23,478 nt of DNA from a virus. Within the stretch, counting starts at the first letter, position 1. Each line of letters opens with the position of its first letter. This document shows positions 3,958 through 23,478 of this stretch, in pieces. Location of the stretch: positions 1-23,478 of the IMG/VR virus record IMGVR_UViG_3300047494_000136. One strand, given 5' to 3'. Under the pieces are notes generated by a model. It saw only the letters and a program-made list of their open reading frames with translations, was not told the DNA's origin and searched no databases. A program made the position numbers and the translations under genes.

Positions 3958-4022
3958 GAAGTCCGCAGCTTGCCCCCTCGTTGCCGCCGCCCAGCGGCTC
4001 ACTCCACTCACCGGAAAATCAC

Positions 4023-4868
4023 ATGTCTCAGTATGTAGAAAGTATCTACCGGAGCTTCCTCGTTGATGCCGCTTACCCCCGCGGCACACGGGTCAAGCTC
4101 TCGGCCACAGCCAACACGGTCACCATCGCCGGCCCGGCCGACGCTCACATAGGCACCCTCGTGCAGGCCACCTTCGCCGCTGGCGCAGTCGTCACCGTCA
4201 TGCTCGTCGGGTACGGCACCCGCCAAGTTATCGCGAGCGGCGCGATCGCAGTGAACAGCAAGGTGTACGGTGATGCCAATGGGTACGTCACCGGCAGCGC
4301 CAACGGCAACCTCCTGGGTTACTCCCTGACCGCGGCGACCGCGAATGGCGATTTCATCGAAATCCTCTACTTGTCTCCCTCGGCGCAATCAAAGCTCTTC
4401 GTGGCGACGGGAACGGCTGACATTGTCACCAACACTGTCGCGGAAACACCGTTTACGCAGCAATTCGTGGTCCCCGCCAATCTCCTGCAGGTGGGCGATC
4501 GCATTGTCATCCGCGCTGCAGGCACAATCACCGGCCATAACAGCACGGATACGCTCAACGTCAAGCTGTACATCGGCAACATAGTGGTCGCGAGCACCGG
4601 CGCCGTGCAGAACGCGGCGAACGACATCTTCTACTTCGAGTGCGAGGTGGTCGTTCGAAGCATCACCTCGGCCGGCACAATCGTTGCAACCGGGGAAGTC
4701 GGCGACGGAACGCCAGGCACTGCAACGGAAAAGCCATTCCTCCTGCAGAGCTCCACACTCGACTCCACGATCGCGGAAACCATCAAGCTGACGGCAACCT
4801 GGTCGGTTGCTTCCGCAGCCGACATTGTCCGACTCGACGTGCTCAATATCGATCGACTCCCGGCCTGA
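4023..4868 (+). CDS. Two-domain capsid decoration/cement protein
   Basis: This 281-aa protein is in the lambda D position, just before the major capsid gene. Residues 1 to about 120 (SQYVESIYRSFLVDAA, then short beta-strands such as LVQATFAAGAVVTVMLVG) resemble small DUF2190-type cement proteins, which bind the outer capsid. Residues about 125-281 form a second, strand-rich domain (FVVPANLLQVGDRIVIRAAG; STDTLNVKLYIG; DIFYFECEVVVR; ATWSVASAADIVRLDVLN) that looks like a jelly-roll head-fibre domain. It is therefore larger than lambda D (110 aa). ATG 4023 is chosen because the sequence upstream of it in the same frame (from TTG 3981) does not resemble protein. The ribosome site is weak (GGAAAA). 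Assignment is by position and domain style. Confidence 0.65.
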   Translation: MSQYVESIYRSFLVDAAYPRGTRVKLSATANTVTIAGPADAHIGTLVQATFAAGAVVTVMLVGYGTRQVIASGAIAVNSKVYGDANGYVTGSANGNLLGYSLTAATANGDFIEILYLSPSAQSKLFVATGTADIVTNTVAETPFTQQFVVPANLLQVGDRIVIRAAGTITGHNSTDTLNVKLYIGNIVVASTGAVQNAANDIFYFECEVVVRSITSAGTIVATGEVGDGTPGTATEKPFLLQSSTLDSTIAETIKLTATWSVASAADIVRLDVLNIDRLPA

Positions 4869-9290: not shown

Positions 9291-10235
9291 ATGTCACTCG
9301 ATGCACCCATTTTATCGCGGCAGAAGATCATCGCGTTCGCTCCGGAAACCACTACGGGCACCCCGATCGCCCTTCAGGGATCCAACGGCGCTTACGTCAA
9401 TGCGTTCGACGCGAAGCTGAATTATGACATCAAGCCGACCGAGCGCCGAGGCCAGGGCTCACTGTCCAGGCTCAACCCGGTGCCGGGCGCGCGGTCTGGG
9501 AAATTCACTTTCAGTTCCGAGCTCTTCGGCTCGGGGACCGCAGCCACCGCACCGGGCTACAGCAGCCTGCTGCTGGCGTGCGGAATGCAGCTGACTTCAG
9601 CCGTGTACACACCGCTGACAGGTGGCACCTCCACTCTCACGATGGGGATTTACCAGGGTGCGGGCACCGCGGCGCGATTCAAATCGATCGTCGGCTCCGT
9701 AGGAGATCTGACCATCAAAGGCAGCACAGGTGCTCCTGTCATGCTCGACTGGTCTTTCATGGGCGTGCATGTCGCGCCGACTACGGTGACCGATATCGCG
9801 CCGACCTACCCGACGACGATCCCGCCGCGGTGTGCCGGCGGAGCCATCACCATCGGGGGGACTGCCTACAGGGTAGGCGCTTTCGAAATCGCGTTCGGCA
9901 ACAAGATCGCTCTGCGAAAGGACATCAGCCAGGTCAGTGGTTACCACTCGGGCTATATCGTGGACCGCAACATCACCCTCAAGCTTTCTCCCGAAGCGCT
10001 GCCGTTGACGAGCGAGGACTGGTACGCCGCGCACCTCGCGGGCACTACCCTCGCGTTCTCGATGACAGTCGGGGGCACCGCCGGCAACGAGTTCACCATC
10101 GCCGCGCCTGTGCTGCAGTTGCTCAACCCACCGCAGGACGAAGACGACGATGACATACTGAAAGACGGGCTGCAGTTCCAATGCGTCCGTAATTCTGCCG
10201 CCGGTGATGACGAGCTGTCGATCACTTGCGTCTGA
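9291..10235 (+). CDS. Major tail (tube) protein
   Basis: This 314-aa protein occupies the position of lambda gpV (246 aa), just before the tail assembly chaperone. It has a strand-rich composition, with an opening KIIAFAPETTTGTPIAL typical of phage tail tube proteins, a conserved stretch of the type GKFTFSSELFGSG, and a later segment DISQVSGYHSGYIVDRNITLKL in which the tube core domain ends. An acidic run (EDEDDDDIL type, residues about 282-291) lies before the C-terminal strand. Hexamers stack to form the tube. It has a good AAGGA ribosome site. A pyrimidine-rich gap follows it, as after the major capsid gene. Confidence 0.85.
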   Translation: MSLDAPILSRQKIIAFAPETTTGTPIALQGSNGAYVNAFDAKLNYDIKPTERRGQGSLSRLNPVPGARSGKFTFSSELFGSGTAATAPGYSSLLLACGMQLTSAVYTPLTGGTSTLTMGIYQGAGTAARFKSIVGSVGDLTIKGSTGAPVMLDWSFMGVHVAPTTVTDIAPTYPTTIPPRCAGGAITIGGTAYRVGAFEIAFGNKIALRKDISQVSGYHSGYIVDRNITLKLSPEALPLTSEDWYAAHLAGTTLAFSMTVGGTAGNEFTIAAPVLQLLNPPQDEDDDDILKDGLQFQCVRNSAAGDDELSITCV

Positions 10236-10283: not shown

Positions 10284-10733
10284 ATGCCGATTGCCCTGGA
10301 TCCCGCCCAAACCGTTCCGTTTTCGCTCGCGACCGATCGATCCGTACCCGAGCACATCCGTCCGAGATTTCTGCTTCGCTACCTCACTTGTCGGCAGACC
10401 AACCAGCTCACATCGCTGGTGAGTCGAGCCGCGGATCCCAACGTCTCGGCCGAGGACCAGCATACGGCGCTGCGCCGCGCCATGGCGTTGCTGATTGCGG
10501 GTTGGGGACACCTGAAGGACAAGTCAGGCCAGCCGATCGCATATCAGCTGGGCGGACCAGACTCGGACGAGCTGGAAGTTTTTGACGACGTGCTCACGTT
10601 GGAGGAAATGTGGGAGCTCGTCCTTGACGGTCGACGCGAAACACGGTTGGCGGAGCGTGACAAAAAAAAATCGCTCTCGCAGCCGGCTTCCGCCATCGAC
10701 GCATCTGCGCCGACTGCGGATCGGGCTGCGTAG
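10284..10733 (+). CDS. Tail assembly chaperone (gpG-like), zero-frame product
   Basis: This 149-aa protein (lambda gpG is 140) lies between the major tail protein and the tape measure, the standard place for tail assembly chaperones that coat the tape measure before tube polymerisation. It is mostly helical and acidic in the middle (DELEVFDDVLTLEEMWELVL), typical of the family. The end after codon 129 (SLSQPASAIDASAPTADRAA) is a low-complexity tail of the unshifted product. GGAG lies 5 nt upstream of ATG 10284. Nine consecutive A at 10662-10670 form a -1 slip site, described under the fusion. The stop TAG is at 10731-10733. Confidence 0.75.
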   Translation: MPIALDPAQTVPFSLATDRSVPEHIRPRFLLRYLTCRQTNQLTSLVSRAADPNVSAEDQHTALRRAMALLIAGWGHLKDKSGQPIAYQLGGPDSDELEVFDDVLTLEEMWELVLDGRRETRLAERDKKKSLSQPASAIDASAPTADRAA

Positions 10734-11029
10734 ACGAACCGTCGGAGCGGAGCCCCTTGTGGATCCGCTGTAGCTGCAGGGGGGAAGGATGCCAGGCCTG
10801 CAGCGGATCCGCCAGGCCGGGCTATCTCAAGATCACCTCCTGTCCGCTTGCGATCATCACACCCGACATCTGGGAAGCCTTCGACGCCGCCGCGCTTGCG
10901 AAGCGCGGCAGTTGGCCCAATGCCGGCGGCTGGCTCGACCAGCCGCGGGTCTTGATGGATGGCATCGCCGCGATTCGTTCGTGCGAGGCCGCCATGCAAT
11001 CTCACGCGCCTGCCGAACCTGACGAATGA
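10284..11029 (+). CDS. Tail assembly chaperone -1 frameshift fusion (gpGT-like) with Cys-rich extension
   Basis: A -1 shift on A_AAA_AAA (10664-10670) joins codons 10284-10670 to the frame read from 10670 to 11029, giving a 248-aa protein (lambda gpGT is about 276). The -1 frame has a stop (TGA 10658-10660) just before the slip site and is then open to 11029. The extension starts IALAAGFRHRR and carries seven cysteines as CADCGSGC (residues 142-149) and CSCRGEGCQAC (163-173), followed by a conserved-looking GYLKITSCPL and a helix. The second cluster looks like a zinc-binding knuckle. The downstream open region by itself would have only a TTG start (10757) and no clear ribosome site. The stop overlaps the tape measure start by 4 nt. 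Frameshifting is inferred but strongly supported. Confidence 0.75.
10664..10730 (+). promoter_or_regulatory. Programmed -1 ribosomal frameshift signal
   Basis: The signal has a zero-frame-phased slippery heptamer A_AAA_AAA (10664-10670) within A9, a 7-nt spacer (10671-10677), and a stem CGCAGCC (10678-10684) with GGCTGCG (10724-10730). Inside the stem a second pairing TCCGC (10689-10693) with GCGGA (10716-10720) is possible. The zero-frame stop lies immediately after the stem. Stems were found by eye and not scored for energy. Confidence 0.7.
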
Positions 11030-13452
11030 GCGACGTCGATAAAAAACTGGATATCACCGTCGCGGCCAAAGACGAAGCCAGCCGGGTCATGGACCAGGTT
11101 GCGGCGAATGCGCGCAAAAATGAAAGGCAGCTCGCTGCGGATTCCGCCGCCCATGCCGAGGCAGATCAGGCACGTTGGCGCATTCAGCAGAAAATCCAGG
11201 ATGACCTTATCCGCCAGCAAGATGGGCTCGCAGAGCGGGCCCGGCGCGCCGCCGCGGAGCTTCGCTTGGTCCAGGCGGCCACGCCGGAGGCTCGCCAGCA
11301 GGTCGACCATGAAAACGAGCGGGAGGACCGGGCTGCCGGCTACGAAAAAGATGCGAAGGAGTTTGCCGCCGCTGCCAGGCAGAAAGAACAGGTTGCGCTG
11401 GAGGCGATCGCCGAGGAAGGCGCCGCGCGGGCCAAGCTTGTCGAAGGTCAGCTTCGGGCCGATGCCGCCCAGCTCGCCGCCGGCCGCACACTCAGCACCG
11501 AGCAAAAGGCAATCCTGGAAGAGGGTGTCGCCAACGCGCGGGCGCAGGTGCTCAAAGAAACCGCGGACCTGAAACAGGCGTACCGCCTGCAGACCGAGGA
11601 GCGTATCGAGGAATACCAGCGCGGGCTGGCGAAGATCGCCGAACTGGAGGAGCAAGCCGCTATCTCCCGGCGCGTTCAGCAGACACGCCCGGAACCCGCA
11701 CCAGCGCAGGCCGGGCCCGGCGGGATCGCCGGCTGGGCGAGACAACAGAACATGTTGGCCCGGGCCAACGGCGACGTTGCCCTCGAGCGCCTGTTGCGAG
11801 GCGGCGGCGCTCTCGGTTTGTTCACCCTCGTGGGCGACGGTCTGAAAGACCTCACCGCCAAGATGGTCGAACTCAACAAAGAGTTTGAAAAGGGTGAAGT
11901 CGACGCCGCGGGCGTGGCCGTGGAGATCGGTAAATCGATCCCGATGCTCGGCGGGTTTGTCGCCGCCGGCCAGAACATCCGCGAACTGCTTACCCATGAA
12001 AAGCAGCAAATCGACGACATCAACCAGGAGATCCGCGCCGGCAACGAGTTGATGGAGCTGCGACTGCGGATCCAGCGCGATCAGCTCAAGGCGCAGGAGG
12101 ACCTCGCCGAACGGCAACGGAAGGCGACCGAGGAGCTGAAAGCCGCCCAGGCCGGCCCGCTTGAAAAGCCCATAGTCGAAGGAGCCAATCGATTAGCCGA
12201 CATCCAGGCCCAGCGACTGAAAGATCAAAGGGACTACGCGGACAAACGCCGGGAAGATGAGAAAGCAGAACTCGAAGCGATCCGCAAAGCAGGCGAAGCC
12301 AGGAAAAAGGTCCTGCAGGATGATGCCCGTGCGAGTGCGTCCGTCAACGAGCGGCTAGCAACTGCTGCCGGCGGCAAAGGTCTGAACGCTGCTTCGGCCC
12401 AGGCATTAGCAGATCGGATTTCCGCCGCGGCGGCTCAGGCAGACGCGGTCACCAACTCGCAGGTCAACGCGGCAGAGGCCCGCGCGAAGGCAGACATCGC
12501 CAATCACTCCAAGGGGCTTGACGATGTGGCGGCCACCGAGCGCCAGACGGTAATCGCAAACGCCACCAGCAGCTGGCTCGAAAAGACAAAAAAGGAGGTT
12601 GAGGATTTCGCCAAGTTCTCGGCGGAGCGAATCCGAAAAGGGCTCTCGCCTGGTGACGCCGGAGACCAGCTCGCCAGGGATACCGAAGACGCGTTGGCCC
12701 GATCCAAGGAACAGCAGCTGCGGATCTCGGGTAACGCGCTCGAAGCGGACCTGATGCAGCTGCGCCGCGCGCATGAAAAACGCCTGGAAGAAATCAGACG
12801 CCAGGCCCAGGAGGAAGTTGCGGTCGCGAAATCTGCTCCGGAGGTGTCCTCGATCCGGGCGAAGCAGGCCGCGGCTAAAACCGCGGAGAACGATTCCTTC
12901 CAATTCGAGTCAGACCGGCTGACGCATGACGATCGGCTCACGAAGCAGGAGAAGCATCAGGAGATCATGCAGGCGCTCCAGCAGGGGCGGATCGACCAGC
13001 TCGAAAAGGAAGCGGACCTCGGCAACAGGCAGGCAAAGCGCGAGGCCGACCAGCTAAAGGTGGCCCAGGAGTACGCGCGGAAGAAAGAGGAAATTGTCCG
13101 CCTCAGCCGCAATGCCAGCGAGGCCGACAAGAGGGCGCTGCAAGCGGAACTCGACAAGCTGAACAAAGAGGAATTCTCCGCCGAGGCGGCCGCTGGCCTC
13201 GCCGACATCAAGTCACAGATCAAGTCTTTAGAGACACCCGTTCGCTACGCGGGCTTCGAAGATTTCCGCAAGACCGGGGGCGTGATGGACGCCCAGCGCG
13301 AGCGGGATCGCACGAGCGCGAACATAGCGGCCCAGCAGCTCGCCAAACTTGAGGCCCAGCTCCAGGCTCTCGATGAAATCAGCCTCAAGATCAACGCGAT
13401 GGTCGCCTGGATACTCGACGGCGACAGCTCTTACGACCCCAACCTCTCATGA
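11026..13452 (+). CDS. Tail tape measure protein
   Basis: This 808-aa protein (lambda gpH is 853) is the longest in the block and follows the tail chaperone, as tape measure genes do. It is Ala/Glu/Lys/Arg/Gln-rich with long helices and coiled coils (for example around residues 1-230 and 330-780). A short hydrophobic, Gly-rich interval lies around residues 256-270 (LLRGGGALGLFTLVG) and another around 305-317 (IPMLGGFVAAGQN); these are the only parts that could enter a membrane during DNA delivery. The opening KKLDITVAAKDEASRVMDQV is typical of tape measures. The length suggests a tail of roughly the lambda size. ATG 11026 overlaps the preceding stop (ATGA). No peptidoglycan-hydrolase domain is seen. 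Confidence 0.88.
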   Translation: MSDVDKKLDITVAAKDEASRVMDQVAANARKNERQLAADSAAHAEADQARWRIQQKIQDDLIRQQDGLAERARRAAAELRLVQAATPEARQQVDHENEREDRAAGYEKDAKEFAAAARQKEQVALEAIAEEGAARAKLVEGQLRADAAQLAAGRTLSTEQKAILEEGVANARAQVLKETADLKQAYRLQTEERIEEYQRGLAKIAELEEQAAISRRVQQTRPEPAPAQAGPGGIAGWARQQNMLARANGDVALERLLRGGGALGLFTLVGDGLKDLTAKMVELNKEFEKGEVDAAGVAVEIGKSIPMLGGFVAAGQNIRELLTHEKQQIDDINQEIRAGNELMELRLRIQRDQLKAQEDLAERQRKATEELKAAQAGPLEKPIVEGANRLADIQAQRLKDQRDYADKRREDEKAELEAIRKAGEARKKVLQDDARASASVNERLATAAGGKGLNAASAQALADRISAAAAQADAVTNSQVNAAEARAKADIANHSKGLDDVAATERQTVIANATSSWLEKTKKEVEDFAKFSAERIRKGLSPGDAGDQLARDTEDALARSKEQQLRISGNALEADLMQLRRAHEKRLEEIRRQAQEEVAVAKSAPEVSSIRAKQAAAKTAENDSFQFESDRLTHDDRLTKQEKHQEIMQALQQGRIDQLEKEADLGNRQAKREADQLKVAQEYARKKEEIVRLSRNASEADKRALQAELDKLNKEEFSAEAAAGLADIKSQIKSLETPVRYAGFEDFRKTGGVMDAQRERDRTSANIAAQQLAKLEAQLQALDEISLKINAMVAWILDGDSSYDPNLS

Positions 13453-14969: not shown

Positions 14970-16819
14970 GCGTGGGACACGTCCAGCGAGGATCGAACGG
15001 CCATGTGGTCAGGGACAAAAGCGGTCATGTAGTTCGTCAGGGCGCTCCACAGACATTCAGGGTCGACATCCGCCTGACCTGCTACGTATATGCCCAGCAG
15101 TTAACCGCAAGCCCGCTGCCGCCACCAGTCGCATTCGACACGGCATCACGTTCGTACTATTTCGTTGACAACAGTGTGATATTCTTGGGAATCCCGCAAG
15201 CCGTTGCCACCATCAACAAAACGCTCATACTAAATCGTGCGTCTGTTTGCATTGATCCGCCACTTTGCCTAGGTTCACCAGGTGAGGCGGGTTGTCCTAA
15301 ATTCGCCCAGCTCTCCGATTGCATTACGTACAGCTATACAACATATGACCAGGGCATCACGACCGACCGCGATCCCCAAGGTTTTCCGTACATTGCCCAG
15401 GATGTTCAGGTCAATTTTTCAACCGGCGGAATCCTCGGCGTCCCTACCACGGCGATCAGCTACCTACCCGGCTCGGACGGAAAATATGTTGCGACATTCC
15501 CCAGTCAGATTAACTTCATAAACGACAGCAATTATTCATACGGGCCGACCGTCGATAACTTTTTCACTCTTAACACCTCAACAGGCGCGATTGGAACGGT
15601 TGACGGGTCAGGACCAATAACTTGCGTAGAAATCGGGCTCGGCGAAGCCCCCGATTTCTACCTCTTCTATCCGCGTCTGAACTCTTCTTCATCCACTTCC
15701 AGCGAGCTGCAACCGAGTTACTCTCTCACTGGTCTTGATGGTTCATCGCCGGTGACGATGACATTTCCAGATCCATCTGCCCAGGATCTGCAAAACCTTT
15801 GGTTCGCTCAGAGCGGTGGCGCTTTCGTGATAGCCTACGCGGCGGGCACCATCACTATCACGCCGATATGTGATGATTGTGTCGATGGCAGTCCGGTTAT
15901 CGACCTTAGGTCGCCCCAGTTTCCGGTCTGCTATTCGTGTTCGAGTAGTTCAACCACCACGACGACGTGCGCTCCGTTCTGCCAATTCCTCGGGAGTTCG
16001 GGCAGCTTCATCGCGCCGTTTGATGGCACACTTTACCTGCTCTACAACGATATCAATTGGACCGACAACACCGGATCTTTCACGGGGACATTTGGGGGCA
16101 CTTCCGTCACAGTCTCAGGCGACAACTACCCCGGCGTGCCGATCCCGGTTACGGCTGGAACTTCATATTCCTACAGTTTCACCGGATCGATCAACAACGG
16201 CAGCGGCTACATCACCGGTCCGAACGGTGACGGGACCATTGGCCAATGCGGCGGTTGCCCTTGCGACGCATCCTATGGGTCGCTGATTGGAAGGTTCGTC
16301 TGCGCAACCACCACGCCGCCAACGTGCGGCGTGCCGGTTGGAACAACTGGCGTGTCTTCGCTGGTGCTGTCTGGCAATGTCAGAATGGCCGTCAGCGACG
16401 GTACGACCATGACCACGTATGCCACCTCGATCGGCGGCGGTGGCAATGCAATCTCGCTTCCGAGCACGAGCGGTTCAATCACAGCGGCCGGCGACTCGTC
16501 TTTCATAGTCGTTGATGTCCCTGATTTCGGCACTGCGGCGGGAATCACGCCGGACGGCGGATATATCAGCGTTGGCAGCCTGAATTGCCCTGGCGGGAAT
16601 TGTATCTGGGTCGCGACACCAAACGTCGGCGGAGGAACCAATCCTTCGGATCTGAAGGGATCGGGACCGGTGACTGGCAGCTATACCGGTCAGTTTTTCT
16701 ATAACGGTTCTTCCAGCGCCTACGACATCCCGATGAATGCGGCTTCTGTCTGGTCATTTGGAACAACATCCGGCTCCGTGAAATGGTGCATCTATATCGA
16801 CAGTGAGGTGATGTCGTGA
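14966..16819 (+). CDS. Putative receptor-binding tail protein with LecA-like calcium-lectin motif
   Basis: This 617-aa protein is Ser/Thr/Gly-rich with many cysteines. Residues 4-27 are three tandem 8-residue repeats (GHVQRGSN, GHVVRDKS, GHVVRQGA). Residues about 30-320 are beta-rich with no recognised family. Cys pairs occur around residues 303-335 (CDDC, CYSC), before a Ser/Thr linker. Residues about 343-385 contain FIAPFDGTLYLLYND followed by INWTDNTGSFTGTF, which parallels the calcium/galactose site of the bacterial lectin LecA (PA-IL): Asn361-Asp362, Thr366, Asp367-Asn368, Gly370. The C-terminal 200 residues are further beta segments. It starts at ATG overlapping the previous stop. A host-glycan-binding role is inferred from this motif and tail position. 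Confidence 0.65.
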   Translation: MSVGHVQRGSNGHVVRDKSGHVVRQGAPQTFRVDIRLTCYVYAQQLTASPLPPPVAFDTASRSYYFVDNSVIFLGIPQAVATINKTLILNRASVCIDPPLCLGSPGEAGCPKFAQLSDCITYSYTTYDQGITTDRDPQGFPYIAQDVQVNFSTGGILGVPTTAISYLPGSDGKYVATFPSQINFINDSNYSYGPTVDNFFTLNTSTGAIGTVDGSGPITCVEIGLGEAPDFYLFYPRLNSSSSTSSELQPSYSLTGLDGSSPVTMTFPDPSAQDLQNLWFAQSGGAFVIAYAAGTITITPICDDCVDGSPVIDLRSPQFPVCYSCSSSSTTTTTCAPFCQFLGSSGSFIAPFDGTLYLLYNDINWTDNTGSFTGTFGGTSVTVSGDNYPGVPIPVTAGTSYSYSFTGSINNGSGYITGPNGDGTIGQCGGCPCDASYGSLIGRFVCATTTPPTCGVPVGTTGVSSLVLSGNVRMAVSDGTTMTTYATSIGGGGNAISLPSTSGSITAAGDSSFIVVDVPDFGTAAGITPDGGYISVGSLNCPGGNCIWVATPNVGGGTNPSDLKGSGPVTGSYTGQFFYNGSSSAYDIPMNAASVWSFGTTSGSVKWCIYIDSEVMS

Positions 16820-18081
16820 AGCAATGGCACATCTGCGAACACGCGACTTCGCATAACGAAGCCGGTGTCGTCTGCGGCAAGGGACTGCGCGGCGGGAAGC
16901 CGTCACACAACATCTGCAACGTGTATTGCGATTCCTTCACCAAATCGGCGAAGCCGACCATTAACGGCGCTCATCTACAGTCCGTGTTCCCTTCGCCACC
17001 GGCCCCGGCCGCCGCCATCATCGGTTCAGAGGCGTGGGGTCCCCGGCTCTGGCGAAAGATTTTCCTACGAAAGAACCCAGACATACTTTTCGTCCAGTGG
17101 GTGCTTGCAAAGCTCAAAGAGTACCGCGGCTGCGGGTGCTATGATCCGGCCGTCGCCTACGTTGCTGCTTTCCCGCCGGTATTCGGTATTGGCTGGTTCG
17201 AATGGGTGTGGGCATGGAAGAATCACGTCAACCGATTGCTTGGCAAGCCGATGCTTTCGCTCCAGGCGGCGCGGGACATTTACTTCCCGGCAAGGCCTGA
17301 AAATCCCGCGCGGGCCATCATCGTTGGCCGCTGGTTCGGGCTGAACATGCGATCGAATGCGAGGGATTCGATGCGCGCTGCTGCGAACCGCTGGGGTGTC
17401 GATTATGTCGAGCTCACAAAGTCGATCGCCCCGCGCGACCCGCACGGTGGCAGCGCTGCGTTTGCGGAGAAGTTGCAGCTCGATCGACACGCCGCCGGAT
17501 ACGGCCAGGTGCTTTACCTGGATGCCGATATGATTGTGCGGTCCGATTGCCCTTCGCCGTTCGACCTTGTTCCCATTGACGCCTTCGGCGTGGTTTCATC
17601 CGACCAGCCGGGCCACGAGAATCGTCAACTGGCAACAACCACGCTGAAGCCGATATTTGCGAAACTGGACATGGATTTTGATCCGCAAGTCGACCATTTC
17701 AACGGCGGCTTTTATCTGTTCTCACCGATCTTTCATAGCAGGGTTTTCGAAGATGCCCGCGCACTCGCCAGCCGTGAAAGTAATCGTCATTGGACGTGCT
17801 TCGAAGAGGGCTATATGTCCGCGGCGATCAAAGACGCCGACTGCCCTGTTACGCGGCTTCCCATAACTTACAACCGCTGCGGCGGTCCATCGCGCGAATG
17901 GTGGAAGCCGGAGATGCAGGACTACATCCAACACTACGCCGGCGGGGGCACCCGCGATGCGCGAATGGACGCCACGATCTGGGATCTCGCGCCGGGGATG
18001 CGGATCCAGGCGGACCACGGAAGCGCTGCCGAATCGCGATCCACTGCCGCTGCAGCGCATCCAGAATCGAAAGCCGCCTGA
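16816..18081 (+). CDS. Phage-encoded GT8-like glycosyltransferase with N-terminal Cys motif
   Basis: This 421-aa protein starts at GTG 16816, overlapping the lectin-like gene stop, with GAGGTG 5 nt upstream. Residues about 165-380 look like a GT-A fold of family GT8 (glycogenin-like, UDP-sugar donors): VLYLDADMIV with the metal-binding DAD at 236-238, FNGGFYLFSP (Asn296-Gly-Gly), and IQHYAGG (His373). Residues 1-40 carry four cysteines (C7, C20, C34, C38), a possible zinc site. Residues 41-160 are a Trp-rich helical region of unknown role. The last 30 residues are Ala/Ser-rich. It could glycosylate a virion protein or the host surface. It is the last gene of the late block. Sugar and acceptor are unknown. 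Confidence 0.7.
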   Translation: MKQWHICEHATSHNEAGVVCGKGLRGGKPSHNICNVYCDSFTKSAKPTINGAHLQSVFPSPPAPAAAIIGSEAWGPRLWRKIFLRKNPDILFVQWVLAKLKEYRGCGCYDPAVAYVAAFPPVFGIGWFEWVWAWKNHVNRLLGKPMLSLQAARDIYFPARPENPARAIIVGRWFGLNMRSNARDSMRAAANRWGVDYVELTKSIAPRDPHGGSAAFAEKLQLDRHAAGYGQVLYLDADMIVRSDCPSPFDLVPIDAFGVVSSDQPGHENRQLATTTLKPIFAKLDMDFDPQVDHFNGGFYLFSPIFHSRVFEDARALASRESNRHWTCFEEGYMSAAIKDADCPVTRLPITYNRCGGPSREWWKPEMQDYIQHYAGGGTRDARMDATIWDLAPGMRIQADHGSAAESRSTAAAAHPESKAA

Positions 18082-18271: not shown

Positions 18272-19114
18272 ATGGGGTCGATAGACAACTTTCTGCTGCA
18301 CTTGGCATCCGAACGGGGCCTGGCAAAACTTACTCTTCTCGCCTACGACATCGAGCTTCGCCGCGCCGATCGGTATTGCATCGCCGCCGGTGAAACGCTC
18401 GCCACCGCACACCTCAACACGATTCGAAAGTTCGTGGCCGACAACGCACACCTGTCCTCCAGGACAATCGCCGGCCGACTGCGCAAGATCATCGAGTTTT
18501 GGAAATACCTCGAGCGCGCCGATCGCGACCAGCTCGAACTCCCCAAGCCGTCCGCTCCCCTTCCCCGGGTCATCAGCAAAGCGGCTGCGTTTCGTCTGAT
18601 GCAATCACCCAAGCCGATCGCGCGGTATTACTTCCGCCACGTCGCCATTCTCGAATTGTTCTACGCGGCCGGCCTCCGCGCTGGCGAGCTGCGCGATCTC
18701 CAGCTCAATGACACCAACCTGTCCGATCGCTGGGTCAGGGTCTTCGGCAAAGGCCGCGAACGCCTCGTACCGATCGGCCGGCCGGCCGCCAAAGCGATCC
18801 GGCAATACCTCGATCACCAGCGCCCCGCGCTGAACAAACTCGACTGCGACACGCTCTTCCTCAGCAAGTCCGGCCAGCCGCTGGGCTATAAAGACATCTA
18901 CCTCACGGTGGTCAATCACGCTCGATCGATCGGCCTCTTCTCCTGCACGCCGCACACGCTCCGTCACACCTTCGCCACCCACCTGCTTTGCGGCGGCGCG
19001 AACCTCCGCGCGATCCAGGAGATGCTCGGCCACGGGGATCTGAATTCCACCGCGGTCTACACCCATCTCGACCTCACCCACCTGAAAAAAACGCACCGCC
19101 TGCTCGACCGCTGA
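18272..19114 (+). CDS. XerC/D-type tyrosine recombinase (probable prophage integrase)
   Basis: This 280-aa site-specific recombinase has an N-terminal SAM-like core-binding domain (residues about 1-95: IDNFLLHLASERGLAKLTLLAYDIELRR) and a C-terminal catalytic domain. All expected catalytic residues are visible: Arg136 (AGLRAGEL), Lys160 (FGKGRERLVPIG), His228 and Arg231 (HTLRHTFATHLL), His254 (LGHGDLNSTAVYTHLD) and nucleophile Tyr263. Length and motifs are close to XerC/XerD (about 300 aa), shorter than most phage integrases. It lies 190 nt downstream of the late block and before chromosomal-looking genes, so it is either the prophage integrase or a host Xer-like gene beside which the phage lies. 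No ribosome site is obvious at ATG 18272. Confidence 0.85.
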   Translation: MGSIDNFLLHLASERGLAKLTLLAYDIELRRADRYCIAAGETLATAHLNTIRKFVADNAHLSSRTIAGRLRKIIEFWKYLERADRDQLELPKPSAPLPRVISKAAAFRLMQSPKPIARYYFRHVAILELFYAAGLRAGELRDLQLNDTNLSDRWVRVFGKGRERLVPIGRPAAKAIRQYLDHQRPALNKLDCDTLFLSKSGQPLGYKDIYLTVVNHARSIGLFSCTPHTLRHTFATHLLCGGANLRAIQEMLGHGDLNSTAVYTHLDLTHLKKTHRLLDR

Positions 19115-19219
19115 AAAATTTTCCAGCGTGCAGAAACCCACCCCAAGCCCACCCATTGCCCCCAGCTTACGGGCTCAAGTTTTGCTACAATTCGCGTCGA
19201 TGTTAGGGATGCCACAGTA

Positions 19220-19248
19220 TTGACGCATCTTGCGTTTAACTGTATAAT
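19220..19248 (+). promoter_or_regulatory. Sigma-70-type promoter upstream of small membrane protein
   Basis: TTGACG (19220-19225) is a 5/6 -35 match and TATAAT (19243-19248) a perfect -10, with a 17-nt spacer. The surrounding sequence is AT-rich compared with its neighbours. Transcription would begin near 19255 and give a leader of about 50 nt to GTG 19306. Confidence 0.7.
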
Positions 19249-19293
19249 TTTCAATGTGTTACAGTCCTATAGTAAATGAACTGTGGCAGCAAC

Positions 19294-19300
19294 AAGGAGG
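19294..19300 (+). promoter_or_regulatory. Ribosome binding site deciding a GTG start
   Basis: AAGGAGG lies 5 nt upstream of GTG 19306, an almost ideal Shine-Dalgarno. The upstream in-frame ATG at 19276 has none and would place this site inside the gene, so GTG is preferred. Confidence 0.7.
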
Positions 19301-19305
19301 TTGCA

Positions 19306-19617
19306 GTGGTTCATAAAATAATGATCGGCACCGGGACGGTGCTTACGGCTGTTTTGATGGTGATTTGCCTGTGGACCTGGCAAAGCGCCCCGACATTGGC
19401 GTTCAACCCCAATCGCTCCGACGATCAGGCCATGGTATGGGCCGTTCGCACCGCAGCCATCGCCGCCGGCGCGCTCGCCCAGACCGTGCTTCTGGTGTTC
19501 GTGATCGGCAACTTGTACCGCACCCGTCTGTCGGATGTTCTGCTGCGGTTGCTTACGGCCACGGTGTTCGCCGTGTCGCTGGTCAGCGCGATCGCGCTGG
19601 GACTTGCGGGGCGGTAA
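19306..19617 (+). CDS. Small three-helix membrane protein, unknown function
   Basis: This 103-aa protein has three hydrophobic segments: IMIGTGTVLTAVLMVICLWT near the start, AVRTAAIAAGALAQTVLLVF in the middle and LLTATVFAVSLVSAIALGLA at the end. They are joined by a polar loop with FNPNRSDDQAM and a short basic one (NLYRTRLSD). The basic residues in the second loop suggest that loop is cytoplasmic. The start is chosen at GTG 19306 because of the strong upstream AAGGAGG; an ATG at 19276 would add 10 residues. It has its own promoter and a terminator candidate after it, so it is a single-gene unit. I do not recognise a family. Codon use looks like the chromosomal genes that follow. Confidence 0.7.
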   Translation: MVHKIMIGTGTVLTAVLMVICLWTWQSAPTLAFNPNRSDDQAMVWAVRTAAIAAGALAQTVLLVFVIGNLYRTRLSDVLLRLLTATVFAVSLVSAIALGLAGR

Positions 19618-19678
19618 GCCAACCGCATTACGCTCAGTCAACATCGAAACAAAAAGCCTCGCCTCTTGGATCAGACGA

Positions 19679-19715
19679 AGCTGGCCGACGCGATTTGCCG
19701 GCTGCCGATTTTTTT
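19679..19715 (+). terminator. Intrinsic terminator candidate after the membrane protein gene
   Basis: AGCTGGC (19679-19685) pairs with GCCGGCT (19697-19703) with one G-T wobble and an 11-nt loop. After five bases (GCCGA) a run of seven T follows (19709-19715). Confidence 0.45.
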
Positions 19716-19864
19716 CCACGCCTCCTTATATCTTCGCGTCCCTTGATTGTTTGCCTTCCAATCACTGCGAAAAATCGCATGAGACAAGCCACGACCGGCA
19801 GCCGCTGCCGGTTCCAGATGGCCCGAACCACTTCTCGGTTAAAAGTGACATGTATTATCGCGAA

Positions 19865-19891
19865 AAAACAACGCGCGATGCGTGTTGTTTT
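19865..19891. terminator. Inverted repeat, probable bidirectional terminator
   Basis: AAAACAACGCGC (19865-19876) and GCGTGTTGTTTT (19880-19891) form a 12-bp stem with one G-T wobble and a 3-nt loop. The A-rich 5' and T-rich 3' ends are typical of bidirectional terminators. It lies 6 nt upstream of the porin promoter -35 element, insulating it; an operator role is an alternative. Confidence 0.5.
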
Positions 19892-19897
19892 GCTCAC

Positions 19898-19928
19898 TTG
19901 ACAATTTGAGTCCCGTCCTTATTTTAAT
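19898..19928 (+). promoter_or_regulatory. Promoter of porin/propeller/EfeB operon
   Basis: A perfect TTGACA (19898-19903) is followed by TTTAAT (19923-19928, 5/6 to TATAAT) with a 19-nt spacer, or by TATTTT (19920-19925) with a 16-nt spacer. The non-ideal spacing would suit a regulated promoter. A Fur-box-like palindrome begins 6 nt downstream. Confidence 0.55.
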
Positions 19929-19933
19929 GCGCC

Positions 19934-19948
19934 TGAGATTCAGTCTCA
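19934..19948. promoter_or_regulatory. Fur-box-like operator
   Basis: TGAGATTCAGTCTCA is a 7-1-7 palindrome-like site that matches the Fur pattern TGAGAAT-N-ATTCTCA at 12 of 14 positions. It overlaps the expected transcription start of the operon encoding EfeB, a known iron/haem-related protein. Iron-dependent repression by a Fur protein is inferred; no fur gene is in the window. Confidence 0.6.
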
Positions 19949-19962
19949 TCTAAGGAGAGCAA

Positions 19963-21435
19963 TTGTTTAAAGTTGCATGCAAAAATTGGTGTGTCGTCGT
20001 TCTCGCCGCGTCGGGGGTTTCCGTGGGACTGTCGGCGTCGCGGACGCTGGCGACACCGCCCGTGATCGCCCCGCAAAATATCGACCAGTCGGATGACACA
20101 CACGCGGTGGACAAATCGCCGGGCTTCCTGCCGGGTTTGGCCCGCAGCAGTTATCTGTTGGGGGACATTGGCGGGTTCCGCACCTTCCTCAGCAAATACG
20201 GCATGTCGCTGGACATCTCCGAGACCAGCGAAATCCTCGGGAACGTCACGGGCGGGTCCAGGCGTGGGCTGGATTATGACGGGCTGACCCAGATGGATTT
20301 CCAGCTTGACACCTCGCGGGCGTTTGGGTTGCACGGGGGTCTGTTTAACGTCAGTGGTCTGCAGATCTATGGGCGAAATCAAAGTGCCGACTATCTGCAG
20401 ACCCTGCAGACGGCCAGCGGGATCGAATCCGATCGGTCCACCCGGCTTTGGGAACTGTGGTACCAGCAGAAATTCCTGGATGAGGATCGCCTGGATGTGA
20501 AGCTCGGTCAGCAGAGCCTGGACCAGGAGTTCATGGTCAGTCAGAACGCGCTGCTGTTTGTGAACACCATGTTCGGCTGGCCGATGGTTCCATCGGCGGA
20601 CTTACCGGGGGGAGGGCCGGCCTATCCGCTGTCGGCGCTGGGTGTGCGGGCGCGCTGGCGGCCGACTGATTCCCTCACCGTGCTGGCCGGTGTGTTCAAT
20701 GGCAGCCCGGTGTCGAACAATTCCGGCGACCCTCAGCAGCAGAACCAATCAGGTGTCAGCTTCCCGCTCAACGGCGGTCTGCTGGGGATCGCAGAAATCC
20801 AATATGCCTACCCGGCGGTCGGATCGATGGTCTACGACGGCGATTCCGAACCGCTGGCGCGCACCTATCGGCTTGGTGTCTGGTACGACACCGAAAGTTT
20901 TGCCGACCAGCGATTCGATACCAACGGGTTGTCGCTGGCGAACCCGGCCAGCAACGGAAACCCGCGGACCCACCGGGGTGATGTCGGCTTCTATGCGGTT
21001 GTCGATCAAATGCTTTGGCATTCGGAGGACGATCCGGATCATGCTCTGAACTTTTTCACGCGAGTGATGGGCACGCCGCAGACCGATCGCAACCTGATCG
21101 AGTTCAGTGCCAACATCGGACTGACGCTGCACGACCCGATTCCGCATCGGGATGATGATACGCTGGGGCTTGCATTGGGATACACACACGTCAGCGGCAG
21201 CGATTCGGCGCTGGATCGTGACACGGCAAACTTCAGCGGAACCCATTACCCGGTCCGCAGCGATGAAACCTTTATCGAACTGACCTATCAGTATGAGCTG
21301 ACGCCGTGGTGCCAGCTGCAGCCGGATTTCCAGTATGTGTTCAATCCCGGCGGAGGCATTCCCAACCCGAACGCGCCGGGCGAGCGAATCCACAACGAAG
21401 CGGTGTTCGGACTCCGCGCCAATATCCTGTTCTAA
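19963..21435 (+). CDS. Outer-membrane porin, OprB (carbohydrate-selective porin) family
   Basis: This 490-aa outer-membrane beta-barrel starts at TTG 19963 with AAGGAGAG 3-11 nt upstream. Residues 1-30 are a signal peptide (hydrophobic VVVLAASGVSVGL; cleavage likely after TLA30). The mature protein shows OprB-family features: SSYLLGDIGGFRTFLSKYGMSL at the start, a region WELWYQQKFLDEDRLDVKLGQQSLDQEF with the conserved Gly-Gln, and alternating strands such as GVRARWRPTDSLTVLAGVFNGSP. It ends in FGLRANILF with a terminal Phe, the usual barrel-assembly signal. It is the first gene of a probable Fur-controlled operon with the propeller and EfeB genes, so its substrate may be an iron or haem chelate rather than a sugar. 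Substrate is unknown. Confidence 0.82.
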   Translation: MFKVACKNWCVVVLAASGVSVGLSASRTLATPPVIAPQNIDQSDDTHAVDKSPGFLPGLARSSYLLGDIGGFRTFLSKYGMSLDISETSEILGNVTGGSRRGLDYDGLTQMDFQLDTSRAFGLHGGLFNVSGLQIYGRNQSADYLQTLQTASGIESDRSTRLWELWYQQKFLDEDRLDVKLGQQSLDQEFMVSQNALLFVNTMFGWPMVPSADLPGGGPAYPLSALGVRARWRPTDSLTVLAGVFNGSPVSNNSGDPQQQNQSGVSFPLNGGLLGIAEIQYAYPAVGSMVYDGDSEPLARTYRLGVWYDTESFADQRFDTNGLSLANPASNGNPRTHRGDVGFYAVVDQMLWHSEDDPDHALNFFTRVMGTPQTDRNLIEFSANIGLTLHDPIPHRDDDTLGLALGYTHVSGSDSALDRDTANFSGTHYPVRSDETFIELTYQYELTPWCQLQPDFQYVFNPGGGIPNPNAPGERIHNEAVFGLRANILF

Positions 21436-21448
21436 TTGAGGCGATGCC

Positions 21449-22600
21449 ATGACATTGAAACTCTCACGAAAAACTGCCGCTGTGCTGGCCGGACTGGTTG
21501 TAACACTCCCCTGGTGTTCGCAGTCGTTTGGCGATGAACCCACGACGCTGCTGCAGACGGTGCATCGGCATGTGACTCGCACGTCCACTGTGCCGGGTAA
21601 CGGCGACACCAATCCGTATGCGATCGTTGTCGCGCCGGTTTCGGCCGGTCCGATCCACCAGGGCGATGTGCTGGTCGACAACTTCAACAACCTCGCAAAC
21701 CTGCAGGGGATGGGCACGACGATTGTCGACTTCAACCCGACGACGAAGCAGACCAGTGTGATCGCGCAGCTGCCGCACAACCTGCCCGAATGCCCCGGCG
21801 GGGTGGGGCTGACCACCGCGATGACGATGCTGAAAACCGGATGGATCATCGTAGGCAGCACGCCGAGCAATGATGGCACCACCCGGACCAAGGGTCCCGG
21901 CGGGTTGATCGTGCTCGATCCCAACGGGCATTTGATTACGGTCTGGAAAGGTCCCAACATCAACGGGCCCTGGGGGAATGTGGCCGTGATCGACAACGGT
22001 TCGACCGCAACGCTGTTCGTCAGCATGGCCGGTTTCGGTGTAAAGGGACCCGATGTGATCGATCCCAGCACGGGGCTTCCGAAGGTCGCACACGAAGCGA
22101 CCGTGCTTCGGCTGGATCTGTCGATCCCGGAGGGCAGACCGCCGGAGATCAAAAGCCAGACCGTCATCGCCAAGGGCTTTGGCGCCCGGGCTGACAAGGA
22201 TTCGTTCATGATTGGACCGACCGGTCTGACCATCGCGCCGGATGGCACGCTGTACGCGTCAGATGCGCTGGGGAACCAGATTGTAGCGATCGACCATGCC
22301 GCCACTCGCAATGACAGCGTGGGCATGGGGCGGGTTGTGACCAAAGGGCATCTGCTACGCCGGCCGCTGGCTTTGATCATGGCGGGTAACGGGCACCTGC
22401 TAACCTGCAACGGCACCAACGGTGAGTTGGTCGAGATCGATCCGACCACAGGCAAACAGTTGTGCGCCCAGTGGGTCGATGCCGATCAGGCTCAGAATCC
22501 TCCCGGGAATGGCGATCTGTTTGGCATTGCCATCTCGCCGGATGGAAAGGGCATCTATTATGTAGAGGATGACATGAACACACTGGTAGAGGCGCGATGA
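21449..22600 (+). CDS. Secreted NHL/SMP-30-like beta-propeller protein
   Basis: This 383-aa protein starts at ATG 21449, 13 nt after the porin stop, with GAGG upstream. Residues 1-28 are a signal peptide (AAVLAGLVVTLPW; cleavage near SFG28). The mature part is a series of propeller-blade segments of the NHL/gluconolactonase kind: PYAIVVAPVSAGPIHQGDVLVDNFNN, GLIVLDPNGHLITVW, TGLTIAPDGTLYASDALGNQIVAI, HLLTCNGTNGELVEIDPTTG and FGIAISPDGKGIYYVEDD. The PDG and the Asp-Pro/Asn turns are typical. It is probably periplasmic or surface-bound. Enzyme activity cannot be concluded; such propellers also act as binding scaffolds. It overlaps the next start by 4 nt, so it is translationally coupled to EfeB. 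Confidence 0.78.
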   Translation: MTLKLSRKTAAVLAGLVVTLPWCSQSFGDEPTTLLQTVHRHVTRTSTVPGNGDTNPYAIVVAPVSAGPIHQGDVLVDNFNNLANLQGMGTTIVDFNPTTKQTSVIAQLPHNLPECPGGVGLTTAMTMLKTGWIIVGSTPSNDGTTRTKGPGGLIVLDPNGHLITVWKGPNINGPWGNVAVIDNGSTATLFVSMAGFGVKGPDVIDPSTGLPKVAHEATVLRLDLSIPEGRPPEIKSQTVIAKGFGARADKDSFMIGPTGLTIAPDGTLYASDALGNQIVAIDHAATRNDSVGMGRVVTKGHLLRRPLALIMAGNGHLLTCNGTNGELVEIDPTTGKQLCAQWVDADQAQNPPGNGDLFGIAISPDGKGIYYVEDDMNTLVEAR

Positions 22601-23478
22601 ACCCGGATAAAGAACAAGAACTGAATCCACAGATGAACCGCCGGCGATTCCTCGCCTTGACCGGCGGCGCTGTCGCCGCGGCGGCATCGACGCACGTTGG
22701 CGCGCAGATCGCCACGACTGAACCGGACGTGGGGCAGGCCGTGCCTTTCTACGGACAGCGGCAGGCGGGGATCCTGACCCCGTCGCAGAACCACACCTAT
22801 TTTGCGACGTTTGACGTCACCACCACCAAGCGGGAAGAACTCGCCGACCTTTTCCGCCGATGGACCACCGCCGCAGCCCGGCTGACGACCGGTCAACCCG
22901 CCGAAGAACTCTCGCCCGACCTCAGCGTGCCCGCCAACGATTCTGGCGAAGCGCTCGAACTGTCTCCGTCAAAACTGACGCTGACGTTTGGCGTTGGTCC
23001 CGGAATTTTTACGAAAAATGGACAGGATCGTTTCGGCCTTGCCAGCCGCCGGCCGGCGGCGTTGATCGATCTGCCGCGCTTCAATGGCGATCAGCTGGTC
23101 GAAGCCCAAACCGGTGGCGACCTTTCCATTCAGGCCTGCGCGGATGACCCGCAGGTGGCGTTCCACGCGGTTCGCCAACTGGCGCGGCTGGCGTATGGCG
23201 TCGTCGAACCGCGTTGGGCGCAGACCGGGTTCCTCGCCAATTTCGGGCACAAGAAAACCCCGCGAAATTTGATGGGATTCAAGGACGGCACCGCGAACCC
23301 CTCGCCGGAAGATCCCGCGCTGATGGACCAGCATGTCTGGGCCGGCAACGAAGGCCCGGCTTGGATGAATGGCGGTACATATCTCGTCGTCCGCCGGGCG
23401 CGAATCGCACTGGAACACTGGGACCGTATGAATGTTGGTTTCCAGGAGCAGGTGATCGGCCGACATAAATATTCCGGC
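22597..23478 (+). CDS. efeB: EfeB-like Dyp-type haem peroxidase/deferrochelatase (3' truncated)
   Basis: The first 294 codons of an EfeB-type protein are present; the gene runs off the window (family length about 420). ATG 22597 overlaps the previous stop. The Tat signal has RRRFL at residues 15-19, then a hydrophobic GGAVAAAA and likely cleavage near VGA36. The mature start YGQRQAGILTPSQNHTYFATF is characteristic of EfeB, as is GFKDGTAN (227-234) containing the catalytic Asp230, and GGTYLVVRRARI near the visible end. EfeB binds haem in the periplasm and is reported to act as a Dyp peroxidase and to release iron from haem. The haem-ligand His lies beyond the window. EfeO/EfeU genes are not visible upstream; they could follow. 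Confidence 0.9.
   Translation, partial: MNPDKEQELNPQMNRRRFLALTGGAVAAAASTHVGAQIATTEPDVGQAVPFYGQRQAGILTPSQNHTYFATFDVTTTKREELADLFRRWTTAAARLTTGQPAEELSPDLSVPANDSGEALELSPSKLTLTFGVGPGIFTKNGQDRFGLASRRPAALIDLPRFNGDQLVEAQTGGDLSIQACADDPQVAFHAVRQLARLAYGVVEPRWAQTGFLANFGHKKTPRNLMGFKDGTANPSPEDPALMDQHVWAGNEGPAWMNGGTYLVVRRARIALEHWDRMNVGFQEQVIGRHKYSG

Follow-up and report, generated by a model that had tools for sequence, protein, structure and literature searches.

A probable programmed −1 ribosomal frameshift in a phage tail assembly chaperone gene with a cysteine-rich downstream domain

Between the gene of the major tail tube protein and that of the presumed tape measure, the virus record IMGVR_UViG_3300047494_000136 contains a gene with a run of nine adenines (A9), at which a second open frame begins in the −1 register. 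The locus raises the question whether one gene yields two tail proteins here and, if so, whether it is the ribosome or the RNA polymerase that slips. The window is the whole stretch of 23,478 nucleotides analysed; within it the tape measure is assigned by position and length only. Taken together, the data described below make it very probable that the gene encodes a tail assembly chaperone and undergoes programmed −1 ribosomal frameshifting of the lambda gpG/gpGT kind. The features concerned are the following (L numbers denote related loci):

9291..10235, plus strand: major tail tube protein (Phage_tube_2, E 4e-17), the upstream neighbour
10284..10733, plus strand: zero-frame gene of 149 aa with ATG at 10284, a probable gpG-like tail assembly chaperone
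10652..10655, plus strand: GGAG, a Shine-Dalgarno (SD)-like candidate stimulator 8 nt 5' of the heptamer, of presumed function
10658..10660, plus strand: TGA closing the −1 frame just 5' of the slip site
10662..10670, plus strand: A9 run with the heptamer A_AAA_AAA at 10664–10670; same A9 and codon phase in L097 and L003
10670..11029, plus strand: −1-frame domain of 119 codons, T-like, cysteine-rich and probably frameshift-dependent; the fusion would have 248 aa
10671..10737, plus strand: downstream RNA structure with a 7-bp stem (10678–10684/10724–10730) after a 7-nt spacer, inside a larger predicted fold
11026..13452, plus strand: presumed tape measure gene, 808 aa, by position and length; relatives in the L005 and L099 contigs, no family match

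The positions of A9, of the heptamer and of the −1 TGA, as given in a preliminary description of this DNA, were confirmed on the sequence, as were the 119 open −1 codons up to 11029 and the length of the fusion (129 + 119 = 248 aa). At the site the zero frame reads GAC AAA AAA AAA TCG, and the slippery heptamer thus lies in the zero frame within the −1 overlap, an arrangement kept in relatives. The zero frame is closed by TAG at 10731–10733, 60 nt 3' of the heptamer (78 nt in L097, 132 nt in L003), the −1 frame by TGA at 11027–11029, which is overlapped by the ATG of the presumed tape measure gene (ATGA). A9 is the only run of at least eight A or T in the window, 0.025 A9/T9 runs being expected from the base composition, and an in-phase heptamer arises in 1.3 % of codon shuffles of the overlap.

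Elsewhere in the window, the genes of an S49 protease and of the presumed major capsid protein enclose a Phage_cement_2-like ORF (3981–4868; weak match just over the curated cut-off). The ORF that separates the tail genes from the integrase (16816–18081; 421 aa) has no Pfam match; in our own reading of the translation, parts of it resemble a glycosyltransferase. At the right end (18272–23478) a tyrosine integrase gene precedes those of an OprB-family porin, an SMP-30/NHL-like protein (weak match) and an incomplete Dyp-type peroxidase; this part looks like host DNA beside a prophage.

Relatives of the locus were found by several routes. Searches that started from one protein of the window, be it the tail tube or one of the chaperone halves, retrieved no confirmed relative from viral contigs, and the zero-frame half retrieved none from named phages. 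With the portal as query, viral contigs yielded L002–L009, and genome contigs yielded nothing and then only distant prophages. In L003 and L005, too, the tail tube gene is followed by the chaperone gene and its overlapping frame; in L003 the A9 has the same phase and is followed by the same TCGCT. Profiles of the downstream domain and the tail tube gave L096 (A_AAA_AAC with a stop directly after it), L097 (A9) and L099 (U_UUU_UUC). Profiles from these six loci, the window among them, were run on both strands and all frames of all loci. Nine further loci carried the downstream domain, including Agrobacterium phage JP1, Alteromonas phage P24 and Rhizobium phage RHph_TM16, and 13 more, including Synechococcus and Rhodobacter phages, had the tail tube in common, with no match to the cysteine-rich domain. 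At this stage the 28 loci, with or without a match to that domain, showed the −1 overlap without exception (28/28) and an in-phase heptamer in 27 cases (4.5 expected). Whole-genome searches in three phylum-level groups added 22 loci with the window's own domain; a last viral scan returned only contigs already known.

Three observations concern the relatives themselves. L097 has about 0.4 kb between tail tube and chaperone with a 118-aa ORF on the opposite strand (3965–4321), possibly a moron insertion. In Synechococcus phage S-LBS1 (L103, 4928–5308) the zero-frame chaperone is annotated as a FepC-like ABC ATPase (S-LBS1_A18); its position and PHROG match identify it as a tail assembly chaperone. 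Furthermore, the annotation begins the −1 half at an internal start codon in JP1, TM16, S-CBS1 and S-CBS3 and omits it in P24 (L102, L104, L105, L107, L108); in the stretch shown, the tables of these five phages carry no frameshift marking.

The final tally covers 37 loci of the window's domain family from virus contigs, named phages and bacterial genomes; at genome loci the ORF ending near the domain was taken as the upstream gene and the frame was not imposed. Relative to the upstream gene, the downstream domain is in the −1 frame at all 37. A canonical X_XXY_YYZ heptamer is in phase within the overlap in 36 (5.4 expected), counts which are not independent events since some loci are closely related (e.g. 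L013 and L037), and off-phase heptamers are frequent as well (9 and 21 loci), at least partly because A runs hold several. The in-phase heptamers are A_AAA_AAC (24), A_AAA_AAA (5), A_AAA_AAG (4), G_GGA_AAA (2) and U_UUU_UUC (1), and in 20 of the 37 loci the zero-frame stop follows directly; the more distant stop of the window is a point against the reading. Apart from this, the numbers support the frameshift that had been proposed from the window alone. The sole relative lacking a canonical heptamer, L005, has CTT TTT CTC at the expected place (10184–10192), where one tRNA might slip on U_UUU or the sequence might be in error. As a control, the scan found G_GGA_AAG in lambda G/T; on HK97 it found nothing despite the annotated frameshift, and the exception of L005 is therefore not alarming.

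Two candidate stimulatory elements flank the heptamer. The 70 nt 3' of it fold with −38.2 kcal/mol (z −4.66), a value reached by none of 200 shuffles, so the folding check proposed in the preliminary description turned out in favour of a structure. The stem described there (CGCAGCC, 10678–10684; GGCTGCG, 10724–10730, abutting the zero-frame TAG) is exact in its 7-nt spacer and its position before the stop; as the whole structure it did not stand, since it forms no more than the centre of a larger fold. The minimum free energy structure has outer pairs that start right after the heptamer and reach beyond the zero-frame stop (10735–10737), and the 39-nt 'loop' of the stem holds further helices. 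Across the family the downstream fold is within the best 5 % of its own locus in 25 of 37 cases. Base-pair covariation of the window's stem is not claimable, the arms in L097 and L003 being at non-homologous positions (in L097 this applies to the 3' arm of its hairpin, read by eye); L003 has no fold stronger than shuffles. The second candidate, GGAG at 10652–10655, is absent from the preliminary description. Its duplex with the anti-SD sequence (−10.0 kcal/mol) beats all control positions in its own gene, and comparable pairing falls within the best 10 % of the own locus in 17 of the 37 loci.

The upstream half has no sequence match in family databases or among solved structures. For its structure, which was modelled from alignments built without rows from annotated phage records (as were the other models), a pLDDT of 81 was obtained, falling below 50 at residues 139–149. 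The slip codons 127–129 are carried by a long helix (106–132), and the end of the modelled protein is disordered. Foldseek alone gave nothing significant; when its candidates were realigned, 2OB9, the tail assembly chaperone of HK97, ranked highest (Z 5.6 across 96 of 107 residues, below the level safe on its own), followed by YqbN (3KLU, Z 4.7) and by others at Z ≤3.2. Gene order together with the match to 2OB9 supports the earlier designation as tail chaperone. The last 20 codons of the zero-frame product past the slip site encode an A/S-rich tail, predicted to be largely disordered, which is written over the start of the downstream domain, the same as in L097 and L003.

A frame-specific coding signal for the −1 frame, whose absence from 10670–10757 had been named as a point against the fusion, was looked for and is present. 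Conserved Cys codons lie in this stretch at 10706 and 10727. Past the zero-frame stop the comparison of window and L097 gives a pN/pS of 0.39 in the −1 frame, where 27, 19 and 47 differences fall on the first, second and third codon positions; both other frames are interrupted by stops and have ratios above 1. Within the 20-codon overlap neither frame shows a synonymous excess between these two loci, which is expected for dual coding (and the stretch is short).

The model of the downstream half (pLDDT 79) has a helix at the junction, KK(I/L)xLA, followed in 31 of the 37 loci by the pattern CxxC...C...CP; a GGxLDQ-type motif precedes the last helix. From its cysteines the domain is predicted to bind zinc. 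In the window and the relatives tested, no significant match to Pfam, PHROGs or NCBIfam was obtained for this half, the weak best matches being under the curated cut-offs or in families of unknown function. Foldseek against PDB and BFVD likewise returned no significant match (best BFVD E 0.024, an uncharacterised viral protein), and neither did a profile search of solved structures by sequence. An assignment to DUF1799 / phrog_680 was rejected (no Pfam or PHROG match, hhalign probability 0.2 %), and no homology to lambda T was found.

In the proposed mechanism most ribosomes would read through A9, stop at 10731–10733 and release the 149-aa chaperone. The downstream RNA structure, probably together with pairing of the upstream GGAG with 16S rRNA, would make a minority pause on A_AAA_AAA. 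The two Lys-tRNAs would then re-pair one base back, and translation in the −1 frame to 11029 would give the 248-aa fusion. On the lambda model, the common half may coat the tape measure and the cysteine-rich domain of the rare fusion may recruit tail tube subunits. The analysis establishes the sites, the conserved −1 relation, the coding constraint, the conservation of the downstream domain and a structural match of the upstream half; from these we infer the slippage itself, its efficiency, the binding of zinc and the role in assembly.

The same fusion could also be made by transcription. RNA polymerase would add one A at A9, and the A10 messenger would encode an identical protein (D K K K I A L A...); mass spectrometry alone therefore cannot tell the mechanism. 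Bacterial polymerase slips efficiently on nine A or T (PMC5009743), a homopolymer of about this length is present at 10662–10670, and 7 of the family's 33 A-type sites contain A9, which is kept in phase in L097 and L003. However, most homologous sites have only six or seven A, or read G_GGA_AAA or U_UUU_UUC, too short for typical polymerase slippage, so that homopolymer length is not kept across homologues. In addition, an SD-like motif and a downstream structure fit the ribosome and not the polymerase, and the structure is still untranscribed while the polymerase sits on A9. The variety of heptamers favours ribosomal −1 frameshifting over polymerase slippage and, together with motif and structure, points to the ribosome as the main agent; slippage of the polymerase instead of the ribosome is improbable. 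Somewhat more credible, and still rather unlikely, is the operation of both at A9 in this clade, the ribosome slipping and the polymerase adding a share of A10 messengers. The site satisfies the requirements of each (PMC5009743; the tally of 37 loci), but the ribosomal signals suffice for a low level as in lambda. It is similarly doubtful whether, in the A9 clade, an ancestral ribosomal heptamer has been extended to A9 and RNA polymerase slippage now accounts for some or most of the fusion, whose cysteine-rich domain would be a zinc-binding tail initiator not yet in the family databases. If true, this tail gene would have exchanged ribosomal for transcriptional recoding with its product unchanged.

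Two further explanations dispense with recoding, and both are largely refuted. A separate downstream gene with its own start, for which the TTG at 10757 with GGAG motifs upstream and the internal starts annotated in JP1 and TM16 might speak, is very improbable. No ATG, GTG or TTG is found in the −1 frame of the window between the upstream stop and the Cys codon 10706, and of 15 loci tested, 11, among them the window, have no start codon from 30 nt 5' of the slip site to the first Cys. The TTG at 10757, rejected as a start by this survey, lies 3' of the conserved Cys codons 10706 and 10727 and is CTG in L097. The search for a separate start, also called for earlier, thus ended with a conserved domain that, in the window and most relatives, has no start of its own. 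It is hardly credible at all that a single ORF was split here by misassembly or by the frameshift of a pseudogene. Homopolymers are error-prone and one extra A would fuse the frames, but three separate records, those of the window, L097 and L003, agree in A9 and its phase, and the −1 relation is found in 37 of 37 loci at sites of different sequence.

Programmed ribosomal frameshifting, the preferred reading, places the gene beside known systems. In lambda, gpG and gpGT are made at about 30:1, the G part binding the tape measure and T the tail tube (PMC5009743). The window's anatomy fits this scheme, with A_AAA_AAA, a downstream fold and an SD-like motif in place of the lambda slip site G_GGA_AAG; its downstream domain differs in being cysteine-rich, and its zero-frame tail past the slip site is longer. 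Neither half of the fusion has detectable sequence similarity to lambda, and a sequence-level link to lambda G or HK97 gp13 was not found. HK97 gp13/gp13-14 is likewise annotated as a −1 fusion between tail tube and tape measure and provides the best structural match of the modelled upstream half, but the scan detects no canonical heptamer in its overlap, and the profile of the window's family does not recognise its downstream domain. The phrog_569/phrog_313 chaperones with DUF1799 (S-LBS1, RcWaterboi and relatives) share the homologous tail tube upstream, the −1 overlap and a canonical heptamer; their upstream half is weakly similar, whereas the downstream domain is unrelated by profile comparison, and DUF1799 holds the same place in some sister phages. 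Outside tail genes, dnaX of E. coli and Thermus thermophilus, an unrelated gene, also has a poly-A slip site; in contrast to dnaX, the frameshift in the window gives the longer product. The E. coli dnaX frameshift uses an upstream SD sequence and a downstream stem. In Thermus thermophilus dnaX, slippage takes place on a run of nine (PMC5009743).

In long-tailed phages a frameshift of this sort is to be expected. New is the family of downstream domains, usually with CxxC...C...CP and GGxLDQ motifs, in 37 loci. The lack of a significant match in Pfam, PHROGs and NCBIfam is probably due to the domain rarely having a start codon of its own, so that gene callers miss or shorten it. The domain profile provides a means to find such genes and to join them correctly, and a way to ask whether zinc serves in the recruitment of the tail tube.
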